DNA of 40,370 bases from a virus. The position numbers and the translations under genes are program-made. This document shows, one piece after another, positions 454 to 40,370 of this stretch (position 1 is its first letter; each line of letters begins with the position of its first letter). The stretch lies in the IMG/VR virus record IMGVR_UViG_3300022919_000002, positions 1-40,370 of that record, one strand, 5' to 3'. The notes under the pieces are model-generated. The model did not search any database. It was not told the DNA's origin and worked only from the letters and a program-made list of their open reading frames with translations.

Positions 454-478
454 AAAAAATGCCGCACTATTCACGGCA
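454..478 (-). terminator. Intrinsic terminator of the leftward control-region transcript
   Basis: On the minus strand a 5-bp stem TGCCG/CGGCA (478-474 with 464-460) closes a 9-base loop and is followed by six T (459-454). It lies downstream of the tRNA-like structure and upstream of the first leftward protein gene, so it would end a short transcript from the divergent region. Confidence 0.7.
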
Positions 479-548: not shown

Positions 549-697
549 CGATACGAGTGCGATTCGAACACACATCAAAGGATGATTCCTTTATAGTCTT
601 TGACTAAGTAATTACTCTCAATCTAGTTTCTCCATACAAAGACCTTTGTAGCTACCTCCGTCTTTGCCAAAGCATCTACCAATAATGCTTCCGTATC
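549..697 (-). ncRNA. tRNA-like element: acceptor, D-arm and T-arm modules around a long insert
   Basis: On the minus strand GATACGG (697-691) can pair with TCGTATC (556-550), including one G-U pair; the flanking C/G at 698 and 549 adds an eighth pair. After two bases comes a D-arm: stem GCAT (688-685), loop TATTGGTAG with the usual GG, stem ATGC (675-672). Just before the 3' acceptor strand is a T-arm: stem GTGTG (573-569), loop TTCGAAT matching TTCRANY, stem CGCAC (561-557). No CCA is encoded. Between D- and T-arm lie about 98 bases with hairpins but no regular 7-base anticodon loop, where a tRNA needs only 22-40. It could be a degenerate tRNA, a tRNA with an insert, or a tRNA mimic. It lacks the G3-U70 pair and tag frame of a tmRNA. 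Confidence 0.4.
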
Positions 698-782
698 GTG
701 TAAAATAAGAGGGCGCACTCTCAAACACCCTCTTTAATAAATGCCGTCTTTCCGAGCTGTCAATGGCACTAATTTTCTCCAT
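618..782 (-). CDS. Possible small protein inside the structured leftward transcript
   Basis: A 54-codon frame from ATG 782 to TGA 620-618, about 85 bases downstream of the minus-strand promoter start. Its codons look ordinary and the C-terminal half (RYGSIIGRCFGKDGGSYKG) looks protein-like, but I recognise no family. It overlaps the 5' half of the tRNA-like element and the AAGAGGG/CCCTCTT hairpin, so either the RNA structure or the protein, or both, is real. A second frame stays open for 15 codons after the stop, which could mean a decayed longer gene. Confidence 0.3.
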   Translation of the reverse strand: MEKISAIDSSERRHLLKRVFESAPSYFTRYGSIIGRCFGKDGGSYKGLCMEKLD

Positions 783-869
783 GCGCCACAACAGTTAAGG
801 ATTGCTGCTCCAAACTACCCCTTTTGTTATAGACTTGAGGGCACTCTGTCTATTGGCGAACCAACGATA

Positions 870-901
870 CAAAGTAAACGAATAGGAATGACTTGTGCAA
901 A
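870..901 (-). promoter_or_regulatory. Leftward promoter of the divergent control region
   Basis: On the minus strand TTTG (901-898) and TTACTTTG (877-870) are separated by exactly 20 bases. This fits the Bacteroidota pattern TTTG-N20-TAnnTTTG with one mismatch. The predicted start is near 867. It lies back to back with the rightward promoter at 913-944. Confidence 0.55.
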
Positions 902-948: not shown

Positions 949-1368
949 ATGAAACACGCTGTTTATACAATTGCATGTCCCGATACTAAAAATGTAGTTT
1001 ACGTAGGACTATCTCAGAATACAGAAATGAGATTTAGGGCGCACCTTAATACTGATTCTTCCGCATCTCCAAGGTTAGGCAATTGGATAGTGGGGCTAAG
1101 ATCACAAAACAAGAAACCTATTTTTAGTGTCATATTCGAAACAGAAAACAGAAGAGAAGCATCAGCAAAAGAACTTGAGATGATTGTCTACTACAGCGCG
1201 CTAAACCCTGTATTAAATTCATTCGGGAACCCTCAAAGAAAGGTAATTAGAAAGGCTCAAGCTGAATATGAGGAAGCTGTTAAAAAAGCATCGCTTATAT
1301 TAGCGAAGTCTGTAGCTAAAAAATATTCACTTGACGATAACTTTATTATTAAATTAAAAATAACATAA
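949..1368 (+). CDS. GIY-YIG domain protein
   Basis: A 139-residue protein with an N-terminal GIY-YIG nuclease-like domain. AVYTI (4-8) stands for GIY, YVG (18-20) for YIG, followed by SQNTEMRFRAH (22-32), which holds the conserved arginine(s) and histidine, and E75 is a candidate for the metal-binding glutamate. Residues after about 95 form a charged helical tail. Phages use GIY-YIG proteins as homing endonucleases, as repair or recombination nucleases, or as degraders of foreign DNA; nothing here tells which. It is the first gene after the rightward early promoter and would be translated from a leaderless message. Confidence 0.75.
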   Translation: MKHAVYTIACPDTKNVVYVGLSQNTEMRFRAHLNTDSSASPRLGNWIVGLRSQNKKPIFSVIFETENRREASAKELEMIVYYSALNPVLNSFGNPQRKVIRKAQAEYEEAVKKASLILAKSVAKKYSLDDNFIIKLKIT

Positions 1369-2598: not shown

Positions 2599-2814
2599 AT
2601 GAAACTTACACCCGAACAAAAAGAGGCAATAGTATCACGGGCTGAACCGATTGGAGTTTTGATAAACAAAATCGGACTTGCTCACGTAAAGGGAAAAGAC
2701 CGTAAAAAGAAACTAAATGAATATAAATCTTTCGTTTACAATATATGGGATGAAGGAGGATATATCAAACGTCCAGTTTATAAATTAGGCAACACTTATT
2801 ATTTTTCAGCATGA
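2599..2814 (+). CDS. Small basic protein, unknown function
   Basis: A 71-residue basic protein; residues 30-45 are very lysine-rich (KGKDRKKKLNEYKS) and the C-terminus has short strands (VYKLGNTYYF). The stop overlaps the next start (ATGA). A nucleic-acid contact is possible from the charge only. Confidence 0.7.
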   Translation: MKLTPEQKEAIVSRAEPIGVLINKIGLAHVKGKDRKKKLNEYKSFVYNIWDEGGYIKRPVYKLGNTYYFSA

Positions 2815-3014
2815 CCACCACAATAGACACCAAAGCCGCTAAACGATTCCTGGATAACCTGGATACCCACATTAGCGCAACATCAATATTCCCTGCATTG
2901 AAACGGGAACTTGAATTGTTACAAGAGATAAGAAACGAGGCGGCTGTCCTTCTTGGGATGGATACGCCGACTAGGATTGAGGAACTTAAAAAACAAATGA
3001 ATGGAAAAGTTTAA
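2811..3014 (+). CDS. Small helical protein, unknown function
   Basis: A 67-residue protein predicted to be mostly helical (AAKRFLDNLDT, LKRELELLQEIRNEAAVLL). It is coupled to the gene before (ATGA) and overlaps the next by 14 bases. Confidence 0.7.
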   Translation: MTTTIDTKAAKRFLDNLDTHISATSIFPALKRELELLQEIRNEAAVLLGMDTPTRIEELKKQMNGKV

Positions 3015-5669: not shown

Positions 5670-6512
5670 ATGCTAAGAAAAGCAACCAGACAGAAAGCAA
5701 AAATACGTTTAGGCTTGTCTGCACCATCGGGAGGTGGAAAAACTTACAGCGCACTTTTGATCGCAAAAGGCCTGGCAAAAGGTGACTTATCTAAAGTCGT
5801 TATTATTGATACCGAAAACGGATCTGCTGATCTATACGCCAATCTTGGTGGGTATTCAGTTTATCCATTAGAAGCACCTTATTCGCCTGAGAAATACATT
5901 AAGGCAATTAAAGAATGCGAGGATGCTGAAATGGAGGTTATTATCATTGATAGTATTACCCATGAGTGGAACGGTAAAGGCGGTATTTTAGAAACTCATT
6001 CTGCTATGACCGGAAACAGCTTCACAAATTGGGCGACACTTACACCGAGACATCAATCATTTATTGATGCTATCTTAAAAAGTAAGTGCCATGTAATTAC
6101 TACGGTCCGAAGGAAGCAGGATTATGAAATGAGCAAAGACAGTAATGGCAAAACTACTGTTCAAAAAGTAGGATTGAAGGAAGAAACCAGAGAGGGGTTT
6201 GAATACGAATTGACCGCAAATCTTGAATTGGACCTTAAACATAATTGCAATGCTTTGAAAGATCGTACAGGATTATTCATGGATAAGCCTCATTTTACAC
6301 CTACTGAAGAAACGGGTAAAATGATACTTGATTGGTGTGAAAGCGGAATTGAGCCAATCAAAAGAGACCCGAAAAAGGAATTGAACGCTGCTAAGGACCT
6401 TATTGAATTGCAGGCTGTTTATCTGTCATTATCTGAAGAAGAAAAGAAAACGCACTTGGAATTAAAGGATAAATTGAAAGCGAAATTAACACCAAAAACC
6501 GATGGAAAATAA
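5670..6512 (+). CDS. AAA/RecA-like phage ATPase, probable single-strand annealing (Sak4-like) protein
   Basis: A 280-residue ATPase. Walker A is APSGGGKT (18-25), Walker B ends at D94 in VIIIDSI, and VVIIDTENG (43-51) is the family's second acidic strand. It belongs to the phage nucleotide-binding AAA_24 type, to which Sak4-like annealing proteins belong, with a short charged C-terminal tail. Such proteins act with SSB and Gp157-type partners in recombination; the direct neighbours here are exactly a Gp157 protein and an SSB-like protein. The exact activity is inferred from family and context. Confidence 0.8.
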   Translation: MLRKATRQKAKIRLGLSAPSGGGKTYSALLIAKGLAKGDLSKVVIIDTENGSADLYANLGGYSVYPLEAPYSPEKYIKAIKECEDAEMEVIIIDSITHEWNGKGGILETHSAMTGNSFTNWATLTPRHQSFIDAILKSKCHVITTVRRKQDYEMSKDSNGKTTVQKVGLKEETREGFEYELTANLELDLKHNCNALKDRTGLFMDKPHFTPTEETGKMILDWCESGIEPIKRDPKKELNAAKDLIELQAVYLSLSEEEKKTHLELKDKLKAKLTPKTDGK

Positions 6513-40101: not shown

Positions 40102-40370
40102 TTATTCGCATGTGCAATCTTCTTTTCTTTTAATAGCCATCCAAACAATGTAATTATCCGGAATAGCTTCTTTTTTAAGGTTTAAATACCTTGCTACAGG
40201 CAAAGAGTTATAAGCAAGTCTTGGCGTTACAGAATATCCCTTTTGCTGAGTAACATTTACAGATATAGGGTTATTGCCTTGCATTTTAAGAGACACCAAC
40301 ATATAAACAGGAATTGTATCATTACCGTTTTGTGCAAAGGGGTCAACTCTTGACATATAGCCGTTATTAA
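40102..40370 (-). CDS. Secreted small protein, 3' part (continues at 1-209)
   Basis: This is the end of the 116-residue secreted protein whose start lies at 209. The frame stays open to the window edge and 40244-40370 is a second copy of 1-127, so the join is at 40243 to 1. The joined protein ends with two close cysteines (EDCTCE). The apparent start at 40356 is an internal methionine (residue 33). Confidence 0.85.
   Translation of the reverse strand, partial: NNGYMSRVDPFAQNGNDTIPVYMLVSLKMQGNNPISVNVTQQKGYSVTPRLAYNSLPVARYLNLKKEAIPDNYIVWMAIKRKEDCTCE
40244..40370. repeat. Terminal direct repeat (right copy)
   Basis: Exact copy of bases 1-127; see the left copy. Remove one copy to get the circular genome of 40,243 bp. 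Confidence 0.95.

Follow-up and report, generated by a model that had tools for sequence, protein, structure and literature searches.

The minus strand of the 40,370-bp stretch of viral DNA that we analysed as a whole (hereafter, the window) carries at positions 549-697 an element in which the acceptor stem, the D-arm and the T-arm of a tRNA stand in their usual order, with an insert taking the place of the anticodon arm and of the variable loop. Frames of this kind, filled with differing inserts, are carried by more than 100 other viruses, most of them metagenomic, and form a widespread class of phage RNAs that is undescribed in the databases and the literature searched. Judged by its sequence, the window element is likely to be a divergent member of this class. 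We favor, with a rough probability of 0.6, the interpretation that such an element specifies a real, non-decoding tRNA-like RNA that acts as a decoy or as a scaffold, both taken in a broad sense.

A tRNA frame without an anticodon arm

As judged by sequence and folding, the element starts with the acceptor strand GATACGG (691-697), which is followed by the two-base joint AA (689-690), a D-arm (GCATTATTGGTAGATGC; 672-688) with the D-loop bases GGTAG, the insert (574-671; 98 nt), the T-arm GTGTG-TTCGAAT-CGCAC (557-573; 5 bp, one of them G-U), the acceptor strand TCGTATC (550-556) and the discriminator G549, which is base G73 of the frame; a CCA end is not encoded. The two acceptor strands pair at 7/7 positions, one of these pairs being G-U, and the additional pair C698-G549 lies beyond them. 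A previous sequence-only reading of this DNA had reported an acceptor stem of 7-8 bp, a D-arm and a T-arm in tRNA order and spacing, and about 98 bases in place of the anticodon arm. This description proved accurate: the spacing (7-2-17 and 17-7) is exactly that of a tRNA, and the range given for the acceptor is fair when the C698-G549 pair is considered. Read on the window copy, the D-stem pair 12-23 is A-U, versus G-C in the class, whose D-stem hardly varies. The fold of the RNA is more stable than that of shuffled sequences (z = -2.58). A descriptor that required complete acceptor, D- and T-stems at tRNA spacing has a single match in the window, and it matched only one of 300 genomes of equal size simulated with an order-2 Markov model; a chance origin of the element is hence unlikely.

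The insert contains no anticodon stem-loop with a U33. In its default mode, ARAGORN found neither a tRNA nor a tmRNA in the element. The intron search suggested along with the sequence-only reading did return a call at the normal threshold, a tRNA-Ser(act) at 548-697, but this call is spurious, as it is obtained through a forced, arbitrary intron of 54 nt. Rfam produced no match, even at E ≤ 5, and the tRNA threshold was not reached. That the element is not a tmRNA, as had been stated, agrees with the lack of an Rfam or ARAGORN tmRNA match, with its true D-stem and with the many class inserts whose length does not suffice for a tag ORF. The protein-coding alternative, a 57-amino-acid frame overlapping the element (618-791, minus strand), gained no support from Pfam, PHROGs or tblastn searches, none of which gave a match.

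Genomic setting of the window element

The window is probably a complete phage genome, circularly permuted or terminally redundant, because both of its ends carry the same 127 bases as an identical direct terminal repeat (1-127 and 40244-40370). Pfam and PHROGs searches showed nothing unusual in its terminase, capsid and amidase, and the annotated terminases closest to its own belong to Flavobacterium and Bacteroides phages. A sister phage (L019), 98% identical to the window near the element region, differs from it in almost all of ~450-2810; the element sits in this variable region and is absent from the sister phage.

An ORF with a GIY-YIG domain (949-1368, plus strand; Pfam E = 4e-7) adjoins the element, and searches with this ORF revealed no relatives. 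In phage T4, the GIY-YIG gene segB is likewise found beside tRNAs and the RNAs C and D, and, by analogy, homing is possible at both of these places. A promoter-like site (TTTG-N20-TTACTTTG; 870-901, minus strand) is a consensus match only, with one mismatch to a consensus that we take to be of the Bacteroidota type; around class members, TAnnTTTG was present 26 times upstream and 14 times downstream, a slight difference only. A hairpin resembling an intrinsic terminator and followed by TTTTTT is located at 460-478 (minus strand), and the hairpin AGAGGG/CCCTCT directly 5' of the element (708-733, minus strand) is possibly a leader structure. The promoter-like site (901-870) and the terminator-like hairpin (478-460) together suggest a transcript of ~400 nt.

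The frame recurs, and covaries, in a class of phage RNAs

We searched IMG/VR with a pattern consisting of a D-loop and a T-loop 85-115 bases apart, in which an acceptor stem was not required. With ordinary tRNAs removed, the matches listed comprised 63 unique places; a perfect 7/7 acceptor was present in 39 of these at the tRNA offset of 15 and in none of them at the eight other offsets tested within 11-19. In 56 frame rows unfiltered for pairing, 78% of the acceptor cells were paired, compared with 38-51% for slid partners, and the corresponding values for the T-stem cells were 96% and 39-53%; compensated acceptor cells numbered 145. Since 27 different acceptor sequences occurred among the 36 paired rows, the frame of the class covaries. 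For the class, this compensation across 27 acceptor sequences argues against a decayed tRNA with an insert, one of the two possibilities raised by the sequence-only reading. The other one, a tRNA mimic, is sustained by the recurrence of the three modules with covariation in many phages and by the structured nature of the insert position.

A second IMG/VR search was conducted with a single 5' half (AGTCAGG acceptor plus D-arm). Among the matches listed, 98 unique usable places had been picked in this way blind to their 3' side, and in 75 of them a T-arm and a matching 3' acceptor strand followed; control windows located 1500 nt downstream contained two such 3' halves. The discriminator A73 was found in 66 of these 75 AGTCAGG-class members among the matches listed. 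The AGTCAGG acceptor is present in 138/200 candidates, many of them retrieved with the help of that very sequence. Both viral-contig searches combined gave at least 152 distinct RNAs in at least 135 insert groups, and the class is larger than the 152 members counted.

The typical frame of the class is, by its sequence, tRNA-Leu-like: the D-arm GCGGAATTGGTAGACGC, U8, A14 and A73, all of them known identity features of tRNA-Leu, are found in most members. A Leu-type variable arm of constant form is absent from the class. When ARAGORN was run on other class members, it proposed anticodons of no consistent type, and gene finders in general overlook these elements or assign arbitrary anticodons to them. 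Some class members are overlapped by ORFs, tRNA frames being often open by chance. The architecture of the class is not among the 4227 families of Rfam, and no description of it was found in the open literature searched, a weak negative as subscription papers and preprints lie outside this body of literature.

Class inserts and the proposed pseudoknot

The inserts mostly measure 35-140 nt, the shortest ones 35-40 nt. A motif search revealed no conserved sequence core in them, which makes a self-cleaving ribozyme with a fixed core unlikely. A helix at the insert terminus with a gap of two bases between its 3' strand and the T-arm is present in 75 of 134 inserts; one base further the count is 61/134, and other offsets yield 24-48. 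Both stems of an H-type pseudoknot can be formed by 71 of the 134 inserts, in comparison with 37.2 ± 4.3 in dinucleotide shuffles, the highest count in 40 shuffles being 48; about half of the class inserts fall below the pseudoknot thresholds. Compensatory changes in the pseudoknot stems were detected between related members, two each in the pairs L189/L256, L177/L249 and L245/L251, and one each in L140/L141, L178/L207 and L208/L226. In some phages, class members are arranged in arrays, in which one constant frame is combined with different inserts; the contigs L054, L094 and L190 contain five 5' halves each.

In the window insert, the automatic rule used for the class proposes a stem S1 (GCAAAGA, 661-667, with TCTTTGT, 636-642; minus strand) and a stem S2, whose 5' strand CAAAGG (643-648, minus strand) lies within the S1 loop and whose 3' strand CCTTTG (576-581, minus strand) is followed, as in the class, by AT before the T-arm. 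The two stems score 15/15, a value equalled by 30 of 3000 shuffles (1%), for what is a single copy with no homologue to offer covariation. Because S2 competes in the minimum-energy fold with the local hairpin AAAGGA/TCCTTT, the modelled H-type pseudoknot of the window insert is put forward as a proposal only.

Two irregular forms were noticed among the class members. The insert of an element in L024 (7916-8098) seems to include a further T-arm together with a portion of a second tRNA-like element, giving the impression that one is nested inside the other. In L151, L153, L161 and L167, the 3' acceptor strand is altered, and after it comes a hairpin whose loop resembles TAGAAATA, possibly a terminator or a variant form of the 3' domain.

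Distribution of the class

A collection of genomes from 84,980 species contained six matches to the long form (four in Bacteroidota and one each in Chlorobiaceae and a Desulfobulbus assembly), from which we conclude that the class is mainly virus-borne; samples of two phyla contributed no further long-form copies. Class members are intergenic, and in 90 of 174 cases both neighbours are on the strand of the element. A recurrent neighbour gene was not found, the biggest neighbour cluster comprising 10 loci. A derivation of the AGTCAGG frame from a host tRNA found no support, this frame being present among the tRNAs of none of 41 genomes from the family of the Flavobacterium MAG.

The sequence-only reading had made its case dependent on conservation in related phages. 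Taken narrowly, such conservation is lacking, in that none of the 17 terminase relatives of the window phage, some of them fragments, contains the long form; 15 of the 17 are devoid of any such element. This verdict is overturned by the wide distribution of the class in other phages, and two of the terminase relatives do possess a frame of the Leu type (L329, 12702-12788, and L350, 15183-15273; minus strand) whose anticodon-like arm is abnormal and short, consisting of the stem CCTAC/GTAGG and a loop lacking U33. ARAGORN names these two genes as tRNAs for Gln and Pro, which is probably a mis-annotation.

Placement of the window copy

The class has a 7-2-17 frame with an AATTGG-type D-loop and a covarying acceptor, and all of these features are present in the window copy. 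It shares with the class the spacing, the AT linker, a pseudoknot proposed by the same rule, and the D-loop stretch ATTGGTAGA of its D-arm, in which it agrees fully with the class consensus. Paired changes distinguish its acceptor, D-stem and T-stem from that consensus. The window copy has A8, A9, U14 and G73 and thus lacks the U8-G9, A14 and A73 of the class. As many class members, but not all, have these bases, we have filed the window copy as a divergent, not as a typical, member.

No sequence homologue of the window copy was found in our searches. With the window region and class members as queries, blastn against annotated phages gave no full match; the exact T-arm of the window is present in 17 contigs, mostly in ordinary tRNAs; its exact D-arm is present in 11 contigs, none of which has a matching T-arm and acceptor; and a D-arm variant with U23 retrieved no relative. 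The absence of a homologue, the absence from the sister phage and the lack of U8, A14 and A73 leave some room for a decayed tRNA in the case of this one copy. The alternative to its placement in the class is that it is a partly decayed or an independently made mimic.

Possible function and rival explanations

We propose that host tRNA-processing enzymes would release a stable RNA of ~149 nt from the suggested transcript, its tRNA-like outer frame letting these enzymes trim and protect it. In place of the anticodon arm there would be a compactly folded region, probably a pseudoknot of the H type, and, having no anticodon, the RNA would be unable to decode. RNAs of the class would then most likely act in trans during infection, as decoys or scaffolds, the frame providing stability and recognisability and the fast-changing insert the specific activity. 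Our best guess for this activity is counter-defence against RNA- or tRNA-cutting proteins, although we regard a counter-defence role alone as doubtful. Going by the sequences, a constant frame with changing inserts would fit a decoy or scaffold engaged in an arms race. One study describes phage tRNAs that evade tRNA-cutting defences through changes in the anticodon loop (PMC10264068), and two others deal with defence systems whose cuts fall in the variable loop or in the tail of tRNAs (PMC13096335, PMC12851939); for the class, these published cases are analogies, not evidence. A constant tRNA frame with interchangeable, rapidly changing pseudoknots, present in arrays, might even constitute a modular RNA arsenal, for instance with one payload per host toxin or defence nuclease, a tentative idea whose odds we place somewhat below even.

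The rival that survives best treats the frame as a delivery and stability device, the insert as a payload such as an antisense RNA or a pseudoknot of the type III antitoxin kind, and the arrays as panels of payloads. The occurrence of unrelated inserts in a constant frame within one phage speaks for it, as do the enriched pseudoknots and the at least 135 insert groups in at least 152 members; the antitoxin RNAs of type III toxin-antitoxin systems are likewise H-type pseudoknots. However, no target or toxin partner was found, and the bases of the frame are conserved beyond the need of a scaffold (AGTCAGG in 138/200, with many retrieved by that sequence), and we hold this explanation to be possible but unlikely.

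Leucyl-tRNA synthetase does not read the anticodon. Given the Leu-type frame, charging is therefore possible for the class, and less so for the window copy. On this basis, the Leu-type members might be non-decoding tRNAs that are charged by leucyl-tRNA synthetase and so titrate this enzyme, leucine or EF-Tu; the window copy would then represent a derived form whose Leu identity is lost. The leucine identity features of most members (the D-arm, U8, A14 and A73) favor this scheme, but the A8, U14 and G73 of the window copy, the lack of A73 in ~1/10 of the AGTCAGG members and the missing constant-form variable arm of the Leu type render it rather improbable.

A decayed or intron-bearing ordinary tRNA gene would explain why ARAGORN calls the locus when introns are allowed and why the window copy is devoid of several conserved tRNA bases. 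Yet there is no plausible splice site with tRNA half-arms on either side, taking out the insert does not restore a normal anticodon arm (ARAGORN has to force an arbitrary intron), and Rfam detected no group I or other intron. The inserts of the class are, moreover, unrelated in sequence yet structured, and its stems are kept by compensation, all of which makes such a gene distinctly improbable. A chance arrangement in an intergenic stretch, for which one might cite the lack of a homologue for the whole element and the choice of the place by a reader out of a long sequence, is very improbable indeed in view of a looser descriptor that matched 1 of 300 simulated genomes, the class-like ATTGGTAGA, the AT linker and a pseudoknot score reached in 1% of shuffles.

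Relation to known RNAs

The closest known counterpart of the proposed decoy or scaffold RNA is the stable RNA C (species 1 RNA) of phage T4, a phage-encoded small stable RNA of ~139 nt for which we know of no function. RNA C has a perfect T-arm (CCGGGTTCGAATCCCGG) in its 3' part by an acceptor-like strand, and it is without an ordinary anticodon arm. It differs from the window element by its 5/7 acceptor pairs, as counted by eye, by the absence of a D-arm and by its position in a tRNA cluster; no sequence relation was seen, the agreement, again by eye, being that of the T-arm and a partial acceptor.

With tmRNA (RF00023), the window element and the class share tRNA-like ends, pseudoknots (in the window copy a proposed one) and the absence of an anticodon. 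However, tmRNA has a D-loop without a stem and a tag frame, whereas the window element and the class have a true D-stem, no tag frame and no tmRNA match, and the single pseudoknot of the class, unlike those of tmRNA, immediately precedes the T-arm. Phage tRNA-Leu genes (RF00005) resemble the class in their acceptor, D-arm and T-arm, and several class members exceed the Rfam tRNA threshold across the insert; the class is set apart by its inserts of mostly 35-140 nt and by the absence of an anticodon stem-loop. Viral mimicry of tRNAs that involves pseudoknots is known from plant RNA viruses, whose genomes bear tRNA-like structures at their 3' termini. Those structures act in cis within an RNA genome and have a pseudoknotted acceptor, whereas the window element and the class appear to be separate genes in DNA phages for RNAs whose acceptor is ordinary and whose pseudoknot sits at the position of the anticodon.

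If the class is real, many of the annotated phage 'tRNAs' are something else, and it would offer a handle on the reasons for which phages carry tRNA-like genes and stable RNAs with no assigned role, as T4 does, as well as on RNA-based counter-defence.

Other structured elements were encountered in the contigs studied. Upstream of a T-arm identical to that of the window, L004 (~2,600-3,000, minus strand) contains a structured stretch with the motifs CTCCGGGCAAC and GAGAAAGTCCAGACC; it is below the Rfam threshold and is reminiscent of a tRNA-borne group I intron. The phage contig L166 carries a tmRNA gene (5724-6218; Rfam 68.5 bits), which is embedded in a very extensive array of tRNAs together with class members. 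In L054 (3170-3319) and L063 (4199-4338), a second type of element occurs beside the class, with a TGTAAGG acceptor, a Leu-like D-arm, G73, a variable region of ~70 nt and an anticodon-like arm (CCCTC-TTGTCTC-GAGGG) that is similar in both phages.
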